64,000 bases of DNA from Alkalidesulfovibrio alkalitolerans DSM 16529. Its GTDB lineage: Bacteria > Desulfobacterota > Desulfovibrionia > Desulfovibrionales > Desulfovibrionaceae. The notes under the pieces were generated by a model. It searched no databases, was not told the DNA's origin, and saw only the letters and a program-made list of their open reading frames with translations. Every line of letters starts with the position of its first letter. The stretch's first letter is position 1. Position numbers and translations under genes: made by a program. This document shows, piece by piece, positions 22,096 through 31,929 of this stretch. The stretch is from positions 62,001-126,000 of the forward strand of contig NZ_ATHI01000001.1 of assembly GCF_000422245.1 (NCBI RefSeq), given 5' to 3'.

Positions 22096-22125
22096 GGGCG
22101 GTCCGCGCGGCCGCCCTTTTTTTTT
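22096..22125 (+). terminator. Intrinsic terminator after the FmdB gene
   Basis: GGGCGG (22096-22101), 9-base loop, CCGCCC (22111-22116), then nine T. Short stem, long U-tract. Confidence 0.85.
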
Positions 22126-22201: not shown

Positions 22202-23497
<1,296 letters not shown>

Positions 23498-24058
23498 ATG
23501 GACGCTGTCAGGCGCACGCTGGCCAAACTGCTTTACGAGAAGTCCTACATCGAGGGCGAGATAACCCTCACTTCGGGCAAAAAAAGCGACTACTACTTCG
23601 ACTGCAAGCAGACCGCGCTGCATCCGGAAGGGGCATGGTGCATCGGCACCCTGTTCCTCGATCTGCTGCGCGACGTGGACGTGCAGGGCGTGGGCGGTAT
23701 GACGCTCGGGGCCGATCCGCTCGTCTCCTCGGTGACGGTGCTTTCCCACCTGGCCGGGCGGCCCCTGCCCGGGTTCATCGTGCGCAAGGAGGCCAAGGGC
23801 CACGGCACGGGACGCTATCTTGAGGGCCTGGGCAACTTCGCGCCCGGCATGAAGGTGGCCATGCTCGAAGACGTGGTGACCACGGGCGGCACGCTCATCA
23901 AGGCTTGTGAGCGGGTGCGCGACGCCGGACTCGAGATCGTGGCCGTGTGCACCATCCTCGACCGCGAGGAGGGCGGCCGCGAGAATCTCGCCCGCGCGGG
24001 GTACGATCTTTTGCCCGTGTTTACGCGCGCGGAGCTGCTTAGCGCCGCGAAGGCATGA
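23498..24058 (+). CDS. pyrE: Orotate phosphoribosyltransferase
   Basis: A 186-residue enzyme of pyrimidine synthesis, joining orotate to PRPP. The PRPP-binding motif MLEDVVTTGGTLIKACERV lies at about 123-141, and the flexible loop has FIVRKEAKGHGTGRYLEG. It begins with its ATG immediately after the purB stop, and its end overlaps a non-used upstream extension of the next gene. The pairing of purine and pyrimidine genes in one operon is plausible for balanced nucleotide synthesis. Confidence 0.96.
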   Translation: MDAVRRTLAKLLYEKSYIEGEITLTSGKKSDYYFDCKQTALHPEGAWCIGTLFLDLLRDVDVQGVGGMTLGADPLVSSVTVLSHLAGRPLPGFIVRKEAKGHGTGRYLEGLGNFAPGMKVAMLEDVVTTGGTLIKACERVRDAGLEIVAVCTILDREEGGRENLARAGYDLLPVFTRAELLSAAKA

Positions 24059-24102: not shown

Positions 24103-25374
24103 ATGAAGCCTGTCGCCGCGGTGTCCGCCGTCCTGACCATGGTCGTCTGGCTTTGCGCTTCCACGACCCATGCCTTTTCCCTGAACATAGAGGACTATCC
24201 CGACGCTCCGCCGTTCTTCCTGGCAGTGGCCAAGGACAGCGAGACGTTCTACGCCTTCGGGCGGCGCTCGCCGCTGACTGCCATCCACACCCTGCCGTGC
24301 ACCACGGGGCAGGGTGCTGGCGACAAGTTCAAGGAAGGCGACTTGAAGACCCCAGAGGGCGTTTATTTCATCCAGCGTACCCTGACCAGGGGCCTGGACT
24401 GGGGCCTTTACGGCGATCTGGCCTTCACTTTGAACTATCCCAATCCGGTGGACCGGCTCAAGGGCAAGACCGGCAGCGGCATCTGGATACACGGCCGAGG
24501 CCAGACGATCGTGCCGCGCGATACCCAGGGCTGCGTGGCCCTGAACAATCCCGACCTGCACTCCATCAAGGCCAGCCTGACGCGCGGCACGCCCGTGGTC
24601 ATCGCGCGCGATGTCGTGGTCAACGACGCGCCCGGCGACACGAGCAGAACCGCGAGCGAGATCGTGGGGCTGCTTGAGCAGTGGCGGCAATCCTGGCGGG
24701 CGCGCAGCAACGAGTATTTCCGCTTCTACGACCAGAAGCGCTACGTGGAACCCGGCGCGCCGACCTTCAGGGCGTTTCGCGAGAACAAGGAACGCATCTT
24801 CGCCTCCAAGTCCTGGATCGAGGTCGCGACCTACGACGTGCAAATTTTGCCCGGCACGGACTACTGGGTGACCTGGTTCGACCAGTACTATCGCACCGAC
24901 ACCTTCGTCTCCCAGGTGCACAAGAGGCTGTACTGGCAGCGGGACAAGGAAGGGAACTGGATCATCGTGGGCGCGGAATACGACCGCCCTGAACGCGACC
25001 TCGAACAACTCTACCTGAGTGAGGCGAGGGACAGGGTTTCGGGGCTGGTCGAGAACTGGCGGCAAGCCTGGGAGAGCGGCGACATCGTGGCCTACTCGCG
25101 CCACTACGCGCCTGCGGCCGTGCAGGACGCCCGCCAGGGCATCGAGGCCATCGTGGTCCAGAAGACGACCCTGTGGGAGAACAACCCGCCGCGCCGTGTC
25201 GAGCTTTCCGGCCTGAGCGTCGATTTGCATCCCGCAGGGTTGCGGGTGACCTTCGTGCAGGATTACGAGAGCGCTTCGGGCTTCGCCGACAGGGGCGTGA
25301 AGACCCTGCTTCTCGAACCCACGGCCTCTGGCTGGCGCATCGTCAGTGAAACCTGGACAAAGTCATCTTCATGA
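24103..25374 (+). CDS. L,D-transpeptidase-fold peptidoglycan enzyme with two NTF2-like domains (Csd6/Pgp2-like)
   Basis: A 423-residue exported enzyme. The signal peptide ends near residue 25 (CASTTHAFS). The YkuD-type catalytic domain (about 30-172) has His130-Gly131 in IWIHGRG and the nucleophile Cys144 in DTQGCVALNN, where the usual SHGC reads TQGC. Two NTF2-like domains follow (about 184-297 and 306-420). The combination of YkuD and NTF2 domains is that of Csd6/Pgp2 and Bdellovibrio Bd1075, which are L,D-carboxypeptidases shaping cell curvature; those have one NTF2 domain. The start at 24103 has AGGAG upstream. It overlaps the next gene by ATGA. Confidence 0.9.
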   Translation: MKPVAAVSAVLTMVVWLCASTTHAFSLNIEDYPDAPPFFLAVAKDSETFYAFGRRSPLTAIHTLPCTTGQGAGDKFKEGDLKTPEGVYFIQRTLTRGLDWGLYGDLAFTLNYPNPVDRLKGKTGSGIWIHGRGQTIVPRDTQGCVALNNPDLHSIKASLTRGTPVVIARDVVVNDAPGDTSRTASEIVGLLEQWRQSWRARSNEYFRFYDQKRYVEPGAPTFRAFRENKERIFASKSWIEVATYDVQILPGTDYWVTWFDQYYRTDTFVSQVHKRLYWQRDKEGNWIIVGAEYDRPERDLEQLYLSEARDRVSGLVENWRQAWESGDIVAYSRHYAPAAVQDARQGIEAIVVQKTTLWENNPPRRVELSGLSVDLHPAGLRVTFVQDYESASGFADRGVKTLLLEPTASGWRIVSETWTKSSS

Positions 25375-26084
25375 GCCCCCGTAGCAAGTACAACATCATT
25401 TTCATGCGCGACGACGCCCAGGTGCGCCGTTTTCGCCTGGGGTCCGCCTGGATCCGGGTCGCGATCTGGCTGCTCGCGCTGCTCATGCTTGCCGCGGGCG
25501 GCGGGCTGTACGCGGGGTTTCGCTACTGGAGCGCCAACGCGGCGCTGGTGGACGAGAAAAGGGGGCTTGAGCGCCGCCTGATCGACGCCGAAGTGCAGCT
25601 CGAACGCCTGGGCAACGTGGAGAAGATCCTGCGCTCCCACGATCCCAAGGACGTGCAGGACCTGATCCAGGCGGGAAACATGGCCGAGCGTGAACGCACG
25701 GCGCCTCCCCCCTCGCCGCCCAATCTCGGAGAGATTTTCGCCTATCAGAATCTGCGTCAGGCCGGGGTGGAGAATATTCAGGCCCGGCTGGTGAACAGTT
25801 CCATGCAGGTCCGCTTCGACCTGAACAACCTCATCGCGGACACGACCCTGAGCGGCCGCGTGGATTTCCACGTGATATTGAATTCGGGCAGGATGGAGCG
25901 GGTGAGCGCGCCGGAGGCCGATCTGGTCTTCTCCATCCAGCGCTTCAAGCGCATCCAGGCCACCTTCAATCTGCCCACGGGCGTTGAGCGGGGCGACCTT
26001 TTCGGGGTGCGCGTGGTCATTTCCGGGCAGGACGGGAACCCGATCTACAGTGAAACCTATCCGCTTTCGCGCATCGTCTCCTAG
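25371..26084 (+). CDS. Membrane-anchored coiled-coil protein of the cell-wall operon
   Basis: A 237-residue protein: a short cytoplasmic N-terminus, one membrane helix (about 27-50), a heptad-like coiled coil (about 55-90, LVDEKRGLERRLIDAEVQLERL), a Pro-rich linker (PPPSPPN) and a beta-rich C-terminal domain (about 125-237) probably in the periplasm. I do not recognise the family. It sits between the Csd6-like and Csd4-like genes, overlapping both (4 and 35 bases), which suggests stoichiometric production. A scaffold that holds the two enzymes at the membrane is a reasonable inference, comparable in role to membrane proteins of the Helicobacter shape complex, but not shown. Confidence 0.85.
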   Translation: MSPRSKYNIIFMRDDAQVRRFRLGSAWIRVAIWLLALLMLAAGGGLYAGFRYWSANAALVDEKRGLERRLIDAEVQLERLGNVEKILRSHDPKDVQDLIQAGNMAERERTAPPPSPPNLGEIFAYQNLRQAGVENIQARLVNSSMQVRFDLNNLIADTTLSGRVDFHVILNSGRMERVSAPEADLVFSIQRFKRIQATFNLPTGVERGDLFGVRVVISGQDGNPIYSETYPLSRIVS

Positions 26085-27840
26085 CCGGAACCTGGACCGG
26101 ATTTCGGCTTTCGCCGGGGCGTTTGCCCTTGTCGCGCTCCTTTTTTGCGCCCAGGCCCAGGCCTCGTCCTTCACCTACTTCGAGGGCACGCAGCATCCCA
26201 TCACCGTGCATACCCTGCACGGGAGCGAGCCCGGTCCCACGGTCATGGTCCAGGGCGGCATCCAGGGCGACGAGGTGGCGGGGTTTATCACCGCCCAACT
26301 GCTCACCGCCGCTCGTGTCACGCGCGGCACGTTGATCGTGGTGCCGCGCGCCAACGTGCCTTCCATCCATCACCGCGTGCGTCAGGTGAATGTGGACCTG
26401 AACCGCCGCTTCGACCGTGAGTACGACGACTTCTTCGAGGACCGGCTGGCCCGCGTTATCCGCCATCTCGTGGCCCAAAGCGACGCCTTCATCCACTTGC
26501 ACGAAGGATCGGGCTTCTACAGCCCCACCTTTGTCAACGATCTGCGCAACCCCAGACGCTGGGGTCAGAGCATCATCATCGACACCGACGTCTACGAGGA
26601 GACCGTGGACCTCTCGGGGCTGGTCCAGGGCGTGCTCGCGCGCCTCAATCCCCTTGTTCGGCCGGCCAGCTACCGCTTCGAGTTGTTCAACACCGACACC
26701 TTTTCCCTGAATTCTATTTTCGGGGCCGAAATGCGAAAGACCTTGACGTGCCATGCGCTCACGGCGCACCGCATTCCGGCCTTGGCCATCGAGGTCAGCA
26801 AGAGCATCTCCTCTCTGGACTGGAAAGTGCGCGAGCAGTTGCGCGCCACGGTCATGTTCCTGGAGCATTTCGGCGTCCACGTGGAGCCGCCGTGCATCGA
26901 GGGCATGTCCTTCGACGCCTTCGCCGCCGCCCCGCCCGAGGTGCGGGTCAACGGCCAGCGTTTCGCGCCCGGCGGGGTCATCACGGTCGAGGCAGGCGCG
27001 CCGCTTCGCGTAGAGGTCGCGACCTCAGGCGAGGACGCCCGCATGGCTCCGGTTCCCGGCCTTTTCGCCGAAGGCAGGCCCTTGGTGGATCTGACTCGCT
27101 CGCCGCATCTGCCTCTCGAACCTTTCGGCTCCTTCGAGTTGCGCAGCGATGGTGAACTGGTGGGGCGGGCCACGGCGCGCTTTGCCGGAAAAGGCCCGGA
27201 CACGGCCAAGGAGCCCGTGCTTTTCGTGCTTTGGCACAACAACCGCCTCAAGCGCCTCGCCCCCGGCCAGGTGCTGCATGCCCTGGAAGGCGACCAGCTC
27301 ATCATCGAGGGCGTGCGCGGCGGCCGCGACGAGATCGTGAACATCAAGGGCATCGTCACCCGGCCGGGCCGCAACACGGGCCAGGACGCGAACGTGGAGA
27401 TCGTGCTTGATTCAGAGATGTTCATTCCCCGTTTCCTGCTCAAGAGCGGGCCGGACAAGACGCGCATTCAGGTGGTGCGTGAGACGCCGGGCGCACGCGG
27501 CGCGGAGTTCCTGATCGAGCTTTCGCCGCGCCGGGTGGAGGCGTTGCGCCTTCTGGACCCGGCCGGGCGCACCGTTTTCGTGGCCGTGGGCGACTCCGCG
27601 CCGCTGCTCGCACAGCCTGGAACCTGGACTCTGGACGCGGCCTGGAGCAATGGCGAGCAGGACAAACTGCTGGTCATGGCGGACGGCTTGCCACTTCGTT
27701 TCGGCGAGACCTTCGTGGTCGGCCCAGGGCGGCACACGGTGCTGAACATTCGGCAGGCCACGACCTTCAAGCCCCTGGGCGAGGTGCTGCTCGCCCCGGC
27801 GAGCATGGCGGCGCGAAGCTCGCAGGACTCACGCTCCTAG
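26050..27840 (+). CDS. M99-type zinc carboxypeptidase (Csd4/Pgp1-like)
   Basis: A 596-residue exported peptidase. The GTG start at 26050 lies inside the previous gene and gives a signal peptide ending near CAQAQASS (about residue 39); no better start is seen. The metallopeptidase site reads VQGGIQGDE with Gln72 and Glu75, then LHEG with His151, and the substrate Arg region NVDLNRRFD. Gln in place of the first His is the unusual zinc ligand known from Helicobacter pylori Csd4. A catalytic Glu is likely in AIEVSK. Csd4/Pgp1 trims the tripeptide of peptidoglycan to a dipeptide. The C-terminal 300 residues look like beta domains. Confidence 0.9.
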   Translation: MKPIRFRASSPSRNLDRISAFAGAFALVALLFCAQAQASSFTYFEGTQHPITVHTLHGSEPGPTVMVQGGIQGDEVAGFITAQLLTAARVTRGTLIVVPRANVPSIHHRVRQVNVDLNRRFDREYDDFFEDRLARVIRHLVAQSDAFIHLHEGSGFYSPTFVNDLRNPRRWGQSIIIDTDVYEETVDLSGLVQGVLARLNPLVRPASYRFELFNTDTFSLNSIFGAEMRKTLTCHALTAHRIPALAIEVSKSISSLDWKVREQLRATVMFLEHFGVHVEPPCIEGMSFDAFAAAPPEVRVNGQRFAPGGVITVEAGAPLRVEVATSGEDARMAPVPGLFAEGRPLVDLTRSPHLPLEPFGSFELRSDGELVGRATARFAGKGPDTAKEPVLFVLWHNNRLKRLAPGQVLHALEGDQLIIEGVRGGRDEIVNIKGIVTRPGRNTGQDANVEIVLDSEMFIPRFLLKSGPDKTRIQVVRETPGARGAEFLIELSPRRVEALRLLDPAGRTVFVAVGDSAPLLAQPGTWTLDAAWSNGEQDKLLVMADGLPLRFGETFVVGPGRHTVLNIRQATTFKPLGEVLLAPASMAARSSQDSRS

Positions 27841-27847
27841 TGTGACG

Positions 27848-27971
27848 TCCGCAAAATACGCAAAGTCGTATTTTGCGGAGAACCGCTGCGATGCTGTCGG
27901 CATCCGTAAGACTCGCGCCGAGAGGACGCTCGCCTAACGGCTGCCGCGCGCCGAAAAACGTGGTTTTCGGC
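27848..27971. other. Hairpins after the carboxypeptidase gene
   Basis: A perfect 13-bp stem (TCCGCAAAATACG, loop CAAAGT, CGTATTTTGCGGA, 27848-27879) begins 8 bases after the stop. A second 8-bp hairpin GCCGAAAA/TTTTCGGC lies at 27950-27971. The first resembles a terminator but lacks a U-tract; its CGTATTTTGCG arms differ from module W. Both lie in the gap before the next gene. Confidence 0.6.
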
Positions 27972-28962: not shown

Positions 28963-29445
28963 CTACAGCGAGGCCTGGATGAAGACCATCACGAACAGGG
29001 CCACGGTCTCGACCACGCCAAGCGTCATCAGATAGTTGCCGAATCCCTGCCCCGTGTCGCCCAGGGCGTCGGCCGCGGCCGCGCCCGCCTTGCCTTGGTA
29101 GGCCGCCGAGGCCCCCATGGCCATGCCGCCCACGATGCCCGCCATGAGCATCGCGGGCCAGTTCACGATCACGTCCTGCCCCTGCTCCAGGGCCAGCATG
29201 GCCGCGTCGCAGATGCCGTTCATCACATTCATCAGGATCATGCCGTAGATGGTCTGGGAGAGCGGCGCGCCGATGAAGGCGATGAGGATGAAGGGCGCGG
29301 CCTTGTTCTGCATGTAGGCCTTTTTCCAGGCCCCGATGGCGGCCATGCCCGCCGTGCCGATGCCGATGGCCGAGCCCAGCGCCGCGAAACCGAGCGCCGC
29401 AGGCGCTCCCGCCTTGGCCAGGGCGATCATGGTCAACGTGTCCAT
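28963..29445 (-). CDS. atpK: V/A-type ATPase subunit K (proteolipid, rotor ring)
   Basis: A 160-residue double-hairpin proteolipid with four membrane helices forming the ion-carrying ring. The conserved PLSQTIYG segment holds Ser63, Gln64 and Tyr67; Gln117 lies in YQGKAG and Glu146 in GVVETVALF. These match the Na+-site residues of Enterococcus hirae NtpK (Thr64, Gln65, Tyr68, Gln110, Glu139), so the enzyme may pump or use Na+ rather than H+ (inference). It is the last gene of the operon, and AAGGAG precedes the start. Confidence 0.95.
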   Translation of the reverse strand: MDTLTMIALAKAGAPAALGFAALGSAIGIGTAGMAAIGAWKKAYMQNKAAPFILIAFIGAPLSQTIYGMILMNVMNGICDAAMLALEQGQDVIVNWPAMLMAGIVGGMAMGASAAYQGKAGAAAADALGDTGQGFGNYLMTLGVVETVALFVMVFIQASL

Positions 29446-29524
29446 GTGCGTCTCCTTGTCTGCTGCGATCCGAAATCGTATGGCCGGTCCGGGCGTCCGG
29501 AACCGCCGGTCGGGACTCCCGCGT

Positions 29525-31327
29525 TCATGCCTCGTCCTCGTCCATTTCCCGCCGCCTGAACGGTGAGTACTTGCGGCCCTTCCACTGCAATCCCAGGTGG
29601 GTGGCGAACTCCAGGGTGTTCAGCCGCACCCCGTGCACCAAAACACCCATCATGGCCAAAAGGATGTTCAGGGTGTGGCCCAGAAAAAGGATCAGCGCCG
29701 CCGCAAGGCCCGTGAACAACCCCTGCGCGGTTTCGGCGGCCATGGCGTTGAAGGCCGAGGCCACGGCCAGGGTGGCCGCGCCCACCGCGAACAGCCGCAC
29801 GTAGGAGACCACGTCCACGAAGTTGCCGATCAGGTTCAGCGGGAACATGACGTGGCCGATCCAGTCTTCCTTCAGCCGTTTCACCGGGGTCATGAAGAGC
29901 ACGATCAGGGCCGCGCCCACGGCCAGCACGTAGAGCAGCGGCGAGGGGAAGTCGTGCAGCAGCACGAAGGCCCTGGCCGCGTAGAACATCACCCAGGTGG
30001 TGCAAATCCAGCCTATCTGGGCCAGAAAGCGCGGGTCCGGGAAGAAGCGGATGACGTTCCACAAATGGGCGATGGTCAGGTGCGTTGCCCCGATAAAGAA
30101 ACACAGGAGCATGATGTTCTGCTCTGCACCTTCGCTGGTCAGCCAGTCCACGCGAAGGTCCGCGAGCGGCCCAGGCAATCGTGCAATGCCGAACCACGTG
30201 CCGGTCAAGGCTCCCCAGGCGATGGTGCAAAGGCTCATCACCCAAAGCAGCGGGAACAAACCCTGCGGAACCTTGAGCGGCAACTTTCGAGCCGCCAGCA
30301 GCAGGCCCGTGAAGAGCAGGCCGTATCCGGCGTCGCCCACGAGCATAGCGAAGAAAAGGCTCAGGAAAAGCAGGAAGATGGGCGAGAAGTCGGTCTCCCG
30401 GTAGCCGGGCAGCACGCCGATCATGTCCATGACCGTGTGGATGGGCCTGACCCAGCGCGGGTTCTCGATCAGGGTCGGCGGTTCGTCGTGCGGCCCTGGT
30501 TCGCTCACGAGCAGGCCGAAGGAGAATGCCTCGGCCGCCGCCCGTATCTGAGCCTCGTTCCTGGCCGGGAACCAGCCCGTGAGCACGGCCAGTTCCTGGC
30601 CCGCGTCCGCAAGGTCCATGCCCTGGCGGATTTCCAGGTAGCGGACCTTCTCGAAGGCCGAGTGGACCACATCCGCCAGGCGTGGCTTGTCGCCCGAGCG
30701 TTCGGCCAACCGCAGGGCGTTTCGCTCCAGGGCGTCGCGCACCCAAGCGATGCGAAACCTGACCGCCGAGAGCGACTGTTTGGGCAGGCGCACCTCCGTG
30801 GCCTGGCCAAGCGTATCCTCGGACGGCTCGGTCCGCCCGACGAGCGCGAAGTGGATACGGTCGCGGTCACGCGAGAGTTCGAGCGTGATGAAATCCTCGA
30901 TGCGCGGCAGACCTCGACGAAGCGGCGTGTGGAAGCAGCGGACGTGGATGCCCTTGGCTGCGAGTTCGGCCACGACTTGGGGGTCGAAATCGCCAAGCGG
31001 CGCGATACGCTTCTCCTCCTGGACGAGACCGGCCAACTCGTCGCGCAGATCGTCGGCCTCGTGCACCAGCCTCCAGACGTGCTCGATGACCTCCTCGATG
31101 GGGTCCTCCGAGACCCTGGCCTGCACACCCTCGGGCAGCACGTCAGGCAGGGCGTCGAGCGCGGTGCGCAGGTACGTCAGCCGTTGCTTGGCCTCGTCCA
31201 GGCCGTCGCCAACGGGCTGGCGCAACTGCTCCACGTGCACCAGCCCAAGGCCGCGCAGGCCGAAGAGCACCGCGTCGCGGTCCGCCGCGCGGCACAAAAG
31301 GGTCAGCTTGCGCATGCCGACGATCAT
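29525..31327 (-). CDS. atpI: V/A-type ATPase subunit I (membrane stator)
   Basis: A 600-residue subunit of the membrane sector. The N-terminal half (about 1-330) is a soluble coiled arm (MRKLTLLCRAADRDAVL... onwards) and the C-terminal half has about seven membrane segments. The half-channel Arg typical of this subunit should lie in the penultimate helices (VDVVSYVRLFAVGAATLAVA, with SYVRL). It overlaps the D gene by ATGA and ends 79 bases before K. Length is normal for bacterial AtpI. Confidence 0.95.
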   Translation of the reverse strand: MIVGMRKLTLLCRAADRDAVLFGLRGLGLVHVEQLRQPVGDGLDEAKQRLTYLRTALDALPDVLPEGVQARVSEDPIEEVIEHVWRLVHEADDLRDELAGLVQEEKRIAPLGDFDPQVVAELAAKGIHVRCFHTPLRRGLPRIEDFITLELSRDRDRIHFALVGRTEPSEDTLGQATEVRLPKQSLSAVRFRIAWVRDALERNALRLAERSGDKPRLADVVHSAFEKVRYLEIRQGMDLADAGQELAVLTGWFPARNEAQIRAAAEAFSFGLLVSEPGPHDEPPTLIENPRWVRPIHTVMDMIGVLPGYRETDFSPIFLLFLSLFFAMLVGDAGYGLLFTGLLLAARKLPLKVPQGLFPLLWVMSLCTIAWGALTGTWFGIARLPGPLADLRVDWLTSEGAEQNIMLLCFFIGATHLTIAHLWNVIRFFPDPRFLAQIGWICTTWVMFYAARAFVLLHDFPSPLLYVLAVGAALIVLFMTPVKRLKEDWIGHVMFPLNLIGNFVDVVSYVRLFAVGAATLAVASAFNAMAAETAQGLFTGLAAALILFLGHTLNILLAMMGVLVHGVRLNTLEFATHLGLQWKGRKYSPFRRREMDEDEA

Positions 31328-31929
31328 AGCTGCGCCTCCCGCTCGCGCGTCTTGGTCTTGGCGATCTTGGCCCGAGCCACGGCCGCCGTCTGCTCGTCGC
31401 CCAGAAATATCTGGATGCGCCGGATGTTCTCCCGACTTTCGGGAATCTTGACCTTCTCGAAGAGGTTCACGCGCTGCGTGGTGGTGCGCAATTCCTCGGC
31501 CAATCGCAGGTGTTGCTCGCGCACCACCTCGCGCTCCACGCGCAGCCGGATCAGGCGGCGCAGCATGCGCACGCCCTCGTCGGTCCAGGCCGGGGTCTCG
31601 CGCGGGTCGGGCATCCTGGCCGGGAACCTGAGCTCTTCCAGCACGGGGATGCTCACACCCACCACGTTCCCCCGAGATATCACGAGTCCGTCCAGGGCGA
31701 CATATGGCGAGAAATCGAACGGCTCGGCAAAGAGCTTGATCCAGGCCGCCATTTCGGCTCGCGTTCGGTCCTCCTCCTGCTTTTTCTCCTTGAGCTCGTG
31801 CGCAAGCCGCCGCACCTCGAGCTGCAACGACTGCTTCTTGAGCTGCAGCGTGGGCAGAAAACGACGATACCGCGCCAGCGCGTCGCGCTGCGTCTTCAGC
31901 TCGTTCTTGGTCAGTTTGATCTTCGCCAT
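31324..31929 (-). CDS. atpD: V/A-type ATPase subunit D (central stalk)
   Basis: A 201-residue, mostly helical protein forming the rotary shaft that links the A/B head to the membrane ring. It begins MAKIKLTKNELKTQRDALAR and contains two long helices with the antiparallel coiled-coil pattern of subunit D. It follows a 149-base gap after B that contains a long hairpin (31970-32019), and overlaps subunit I. No AtpF-like gene is found next to it, as in Chlamydia-type operons. Confidence 0.93.
   Translation of the reverse strand: MAKIKLTKNELKTQRDALARYRRFLPTLQLKKQSLQLEVRRLAHELKEKKQEEDRTRAEMAAWIKLFAEPFDFSPYVALDGLVISRGNVVGVSIPVLEELRFPARMPDPRETPAWTDEGVRMLRRLIRLRVEREVVREQHLRLAEELRTTTQRVNLFEKVKIPESRENIRRIQIFLGDEQTAAVARAKIAKTKTREREAQL

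Follow-up and report, generated by a model that had tools for sequence, protein, structure and literature searches.

The csd6-mid-m99 locus

The window analyzed here is a 64,000-nucleotide stretch of the Alkalidesulfovibrio alkalitolerans DSM 16529 genome (contig NZ_ATHI01000001.1, positions 62,001 to 126,000). At positions 24103 to 27840, it holds three genes that overlap head to tail on the + strand, which we refer to as csd6, mid, and m99. They encode two predicted peptidoglycan carboxypeptidases and, between them, a membrane protein, Mid, that we consider a candidate adaptor to the bactofilin cytoskeleton. An earlier note on this DNA had proposed a cell-curvature operon at these coordinates; all three genes were confirmed there, and the operon layout that it described is real, with the csd6-mid-m99 order kept in relatives. 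The ATG start of mid overlaps the end of the csd6-like gene by ATGA, and the GTG start of the third gene (26050) sits within the 3' end of mid, overlaps that are consistent with translational coupling.

The first gene (24103–25374, ATG start) encodes a 423-residue YkuD enzyme that Pfam and structure matches place with Csd6, Pgp2, and Bd1075. Its product, which has a signal-peptide-like N terminus, matches the Pfam families YkuD (1e-13; catalytic domain at 24280–24603) and Cds6_C (1.7e-29), the latter in two copies that form NTF2-like domains at 24664–24969 and 25048–25350. The closest solved structures are Bd1075 (7o21, 2e-30), Csd6 (4xzz), and Pgp2 (6xj6), which likewise have a YkuD domain with a His/Cys site and then an NTF2-like domain; the corresponding His130 and Cys144 are invariant in a 29-sequence alignment. 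The YkuD plus NTF2-like architecture read from the sequence in the earlier note is thus upheld, with two NTF2-like copies compared with the one described for Bd1075 and Pgp2 and three in some relatives. Certain relatives (Solidesulfovibrio and others) have Csd6-like proteins of 740–930 residues that contain additional NTF2 copies or have long insertions separating them (L061:8384–10681; L138, L139, and L141). Unlike Csd6, Pgp2, and Bd1075, the enzyme is co-encoded with a putative DL-carboxypeptidase and an adaptor-like protein.

From this homology, we predict that the first protein is an LD-carboxypeptidase. That it is instead an L,D-transpeptidase or a DpaA-like amidase is suggested by its top NCBIfam match, LdtF_DpaA_YafK, though its score of 31 bits falls far below the cut-off of 365. 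We judge this alternative very improbable given the Cds6_C match, the nearest structures, all three described as LD-carboxypeptidases, and the presence next door of a gene of the Csd4/Pgp1 family, a user of the LD-carboxypeptidase product.

The third gene (26050–27840) encodes a 596-residue carboxypeptidase of the Csd4/Pgp1 type, also with a signal-peptide-like N terminus. It matches Pfam Peptidase_M99 (1e-27; 97.7 bits against a curated cut-off of 27), and its nearest solved structures by sequence are those of Csd4 (4q6m and 4wck). Five Csd4 entries also rank first (E 5e-24 to 4e-22) in a fold search with its predicted model (predicted local distance difference test score (pLDDT), 88.7; predicted template modeling score (pTM), 0.89). 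Alignment to Csd4 maps Gln72, Glu75, and His151 of the catalytic domain (26227–26877) to Csd4 Gln46, Glu49, and His128, and Arg111, Arg119, and Glu248 to Arg86, Arg94, and Glu222; the roles of these six Csd4 residues have been described (PMC4220969), and all six counterparts are invariant across 29 sequences. The protein therefore has in common with Csd4/Pgp1 the catalytic domain, the Q-x-x-E...H metal site, both key arginines, the catalytic glutamate, and the fold, and we predict from this homology that it is a DL-carboxypeptidase. It differs in its longer C-terminal region and represents a divergent M99 branch, its 97.7 bits to the Pfam model comparing with 259–295 bits for M99 proteins found unlinked to the operon in relatives.

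The earlier note had recognized both the Csd4-like character of this enzyme and its Gln72/Glu75/His151 triad, but its view of the glutamine ligand as unusual does not hold. A Q-x-x-E-x(n)-H motif is conserved among Csd4 homologues (PMC4220969), and since the six functional residues map to the third gene and are invariant in the 29 sequences, the glutamine ligand characterizes Csd4-family enzymes in general and is no novelty of this protein. Calcium was observed in the Csd4 site (PMC4220969), so the sequence does not settle which metal is bound here.

Architecture of Mid and its similarity to LmdC

The middle gene (25371–26084, ATG start) encodes a 237-residue membrane protein of an unnamed family. 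Mid itself has no match in Pfam or NCBIfam, and a known family was rejected because scans of 32 family members against both databases gave nothing consistent, only scattered matches of one to three members each; a profile search of the PDB returned nothing credible. The expectation of a new third component is supported, in that Mid is unnamed in these databases yet conserved in the operon, and we found no description of the family or of the csd6-mid-m99 operon in the literature searched, outside of which most subscription journals lie.

An AlphaFold2 prediction from 40 sequences (mean pLDDT 90, pTM 0.53) contains strands at residues 6–11 and 19–24, a helix at 25–89, a second helix at 92–104, a low-confidence linker at about residues 107–110, and a β domain at 131–231. 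The first two strands form a β-hairpin (residues 6–24; 25386–25442) that is the best conserved part of the protein and includes an invariant R13-D14 pair. The long helix (25443–25637) appears to cross the membrane and run on into a coiled coil, and the β domain (25761–26063) is modeled as a sandwich resembling the immunoglobulin (Ig)-like domains of GH2 enzymes (VIA-align Z 11.8, rmsd (root-mean-square deviation) 2.0 over 99 residues), with Foldseek alone giving weak matches. According to the model, then, Mid would be bitopic: the hairpin would lie in the cytosol, the long helix would span the membrane and form the coiled coil, and the Ig-like domain would be periplasmic. The description "membrane coiled-coil" given to it previously captured the helix and left out the hairpin before it and the Ig-like domain after it.

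This layout recalls the LmdC-type M23 peptidases that operate with the bactofilin BacA, which have a cytosolic β-hairpin, one membrane helix, and a coiled coil (PMC10945521). In Rhodospirillum rubrum, LmdC sets curvature, and without its hairpin, which is needed to bind bactofilin, it is not recruited by bactofilin to the inner curve; within the hairpin, the clusters R25-H26-L27 and R30-S31, close to the turn, are important (PMC10945521). By analogy, the R13-D14 pair of Mid, which precedes the turn, may occupy a similar place, and the hairpin of Mid is a candidate bactofilin dock. The host genome itself encodes an LmdC-type M23 peptidase whose N terminus (KKYHIVIFRDGIGQCRKLRC) resembles that of Mid (KYNIIFMRDDAQVRRFRLGS), and relatives of this peptidase adjoin bactofilin in four genomes (G039, G041, G049, and G057), as expected of LmdC. 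Because a hidden Markov model (HMM) of the hairpin alone is too short to reach significance, we used a profile-profile comparison with shuffles, in which the hairpins of Mid and M23 scored 18.5, whereas the best of 400 column shuffles reached 15.0. An HMM of hairpin plus membrane helix put M23 among the top non-Mid matches, at an E value of only 0.7. In Mid, the Ig-like domain replaces the M23 peptidase domain, for which none of the 32 members has a Pfam match, and Mid is co-encoded with soluble carboxypeptidases; it is thus not an LmdC, but docking like that of LmdC is possible.

Linkage to bactofilin and plasticity of the operon

Relatives of mid occur in 43 of 59 genomes of the host's order, and the csd6-mid-m99 order recurs across the Desulfovibrionaceae, other Desulfobacterota families, and the Desulfobacterales, as well as in members of the Myxococcota and Latescibacterota. 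In Salidesulfovibrio brasiliensis, mid is split across two reading frames (L125:7143–7855), by either a frameshift or an assembly error.

At ten loci from several families (L108, L109, L113, L167, L176, L178, L181, L193, L196, and L200), the operon itself includes a bactofilin gene, in the order csd6-mid-(m99)-bactofilin on one strand, and Pfam confirms nine of the ten. By a rough estimate, for genomes in which one to three of several thousand genes encode bactofilin, chance adjacency would yield well under one such locus. Among 58 order-level relatives, bactofilin is present in all 43 genomes that carry mid, and mid is missing from all nine that lack a convincing bactofilin (p 4.7e-7, with kinship ignored). 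We looked for a bactofilin beside mid in the host and rejected that arrangement: its single bactofilin gene (L207:4203–4574) is on another contig, contig 26, where it comes immediately after elongation genes resembling those for PBP2 and RodA (together L207:1181–4574) and ahead of F-type ATP synthase genes. Ca. Magnetobacterium casense (G453 contig 51, L165) has a weak mid relative (E 3.8e-12) immediately after a pair of bactofilin genes, at a site separate from its csd6 locus.

These data bear on whether Mid might serve as a scaffold independent of bactofilin, its Ig-like domain gathering both enzymes or binding the wall so as to channel trimming from tetra- to dipeptide, and its hairpin serving only folding or topology. 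The order and overlap of mid with both enzyme genes, the Ig-like periplasmic domain itself, and the distant bactofilin of the host would all suit such a scaffold. We nevertheless think it unlikely, as bactofilin lies within the operon at ten loci, accompanies mid in 43 of 43 genomes, and the hairpin is conserved better than any other part of Mid.

The operon is also plastic, with mid retained in several relatives whose in-operon csd6 or m99 is absent or replaced; this, the bactofilin link, and the occurrence of the operon in several phyla did not figure in the earlier note. A search of wider genome contigs with the csd6 alignment as query found csd6-like and m99-like neighbors without mid at loci of Nitrospirota, Deferribacterota, Neomarinimicrobiota, Balneatrix, and Aminicenantes, making the enzyme pair much wider than this window; three genomes of one family, f3 (G041, G049, and G057), likewise have csd6 adjoining m99 and no mid. 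In eleven Desulfovibrionaceae genomes (G003, G005, G010, G012, G013, G016, G017, G019, G021, G023, and G027; L071–L081), the in-operon M99 is missing and an unlinked M99, much closer to the Pfam model, is encoded elsewhere. Ten of these eleven were put in a tree and form their own clade (100/100), a grouping to be read with caution because of long branches on both sides, and a weak second M99 match occurs in just one of the eleven genomes. The two M99 types form separate, mutually exclusive clades, as if one DL-carboxypeptidase had taken the place of another. The idea that m99 is a fixed part of the module was rejected, since csd6-mid occurs in several genomes whose M99 is unlinked and of a different branch, or in which none was detected.

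In a further family, f5, mid stays near purB and is directly preceded, in the place of csd6, by a gene for a 200-residue lipoprotein-like protein without a Pfam name (L041:6271–6870; also L042 and L043). Mid and the enzymes are therefore separable partners, a behavior easier to reconcile with an adaptor that works on a common scaffold than with a constant subunit of an enzyme.

A candidate role in cell curvature

We propose, as an evenly balanced possibility, that the operon encodes a module for peptidoglycan trimming that includes a dedicated cytoskeletal adaptor, Mid, which would dock the enzymes on bactofilin and so bend the cell. By homology, the secreted Csd6-like enzyme would cut tetrapeptide stems to tripeptides and bind the wall via its NTF2 domains, and the secreted Csd4-like enzyme would cut the tripeptides to dipeptides; in Campylobacter jejuni, the DL-carboxypeptidase Pgp1 acts on the tripeptides that Pgp2 produces from tetrapeptides, and helical shape needs both (PMC3961634). 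Mid, in the inner membrane, would dock its cytosolic hairpin on the bactofilin polymer as LmdC does, a step that we infer from gene neighborhood, co-occurrence, hairpin similarity, and the AlphaFold model. At the site of the polymer, the Ig-like domain of Mid would then retain or enrich either enzyme, both, or their wall substrate, and the cell, trimmed more on one side than on the other, would bend into a vibrio. Bd1075 curves Bdellovibrio from one cell side (PMC8938487).

The recruitment of wall enzymes by bactofilins is a known theme, exemplified by LmdC (PMC10945521) and by Csd5 and Csd7, partners of CcmA in Helicobacter pylori (PMC9507126). The latter two are described as non-enzymatic transmembrane linkers of bactofilin to the wall or wall enzymes (PMC9507126), the part proposed here for Mid, but Csd5 carries a wall-binding SH3 domain where the modeled domain of Mid is Ig-like; general Pfam scans of Mid members gave no SH3 match, and no direct comparison with Csd5 was made. 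The two enzymes add new members to known families, and a module with a bactofilin-type adaptor would be a new variation on this theme. There is a chance, a shade short of even, that Mid is the first of a family of dedicated adaptors, each linking an intracellular bactofilin filament to soluble LD- and DL-carboxypeptidases in the periplasm, and that the cytoskeleton in this way dictates where stem peptides are trimmed.

Several observations weigh against the proposed trimming module and its adaptor. Pairs of csd6 and m99 exist without mid, and f5 genomes keep mid with neither a neighboring csd6 nor an M99. The host's only bactofilin lies outside the operon, the co-occurrence count takes no account of kinship, and the hairpin-only HMM, run against ≈15,000 open reading frames, gave no significant match, the hairpin being short. 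Finally, Bd1075 reaches the outer curve via its own NTF2 domain, whereas LmdC and BacA of R. rubrum sit at the inner curve, so trimming might fall on either side.

A different account is that the enzymes serve general wall maintenance or turnover, trimming stems for recycling or cross-link control while other proteins set curvature. The operon does come after housekeeping purB and pyrE genes, and many non-curved bacteria also have pgp2-like genes (PMC3961634); reports of pgp1 (M99), however, come mostly from bacteria with curved or helical cells (PMC3961634), M99 is absent from all 14 control genomes, and the link to bactofilin is a link to a shape cytoskeleton. We regard the maintenance role as doubtful on these grounds.

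If the adaptor proposal is correct, Mid would provide a mechanism for the asymmetric placement of Csd6/Bd1075-type enzymes. The authors of the Bd1075 study noted that the mechanism by which a protein could be directed to a single lateral side-wall was not known (PMC8938487), and Pgp1 and Pgp2 are insufficient to make E. coli helical (PMC3961634), which hints at missing localization factors. A membrane protein encoded between enzymes of these kinds and tied to bactofilin makes the question of side-wall targeting directly testable. The host is probably vibrioid, as the earlier note had supposed: its genus is described as vibrio-shaped, as are most Desulfovibrionaceae genera, and Lawsonia too is listed as a vibrio (PMC9174804). 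The mid operon is a candidate explanation for the vibrio form of sulfate reducers; the literature searched yielded no genetic account of that shape. Desulfomicrobium, whose members are straight rods, has a csd6-like gene and neither mid nor bactofilin in its named record.

Directly upstream of the csd6-like gene, on the + strand, lie a purB-like gene (adenylosuccinate lyase; 22203–23497, sequence read by eye) and a pyrE-like phosphoribosyltransferase gene (23498–24058; Pfam Pribosyltran, 9.6e-8). A terminator-like stem at 22096–22116 precedes purB, and a perfect 13-nucleotide inverted repeat, possibly the transcript end, lies directly 3' of the operon at 27848–27879, so purB, pyrE, csd6, mid, and m99 may share one transcript, with purB likely its first gene. 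Just past the operon, on the minus strand at 28963–31929, are genes that read as V/A-type ATPase subunits; F-type ATP synthase genes occur in the host genome as well. The G+C content of the window is 65.9%.

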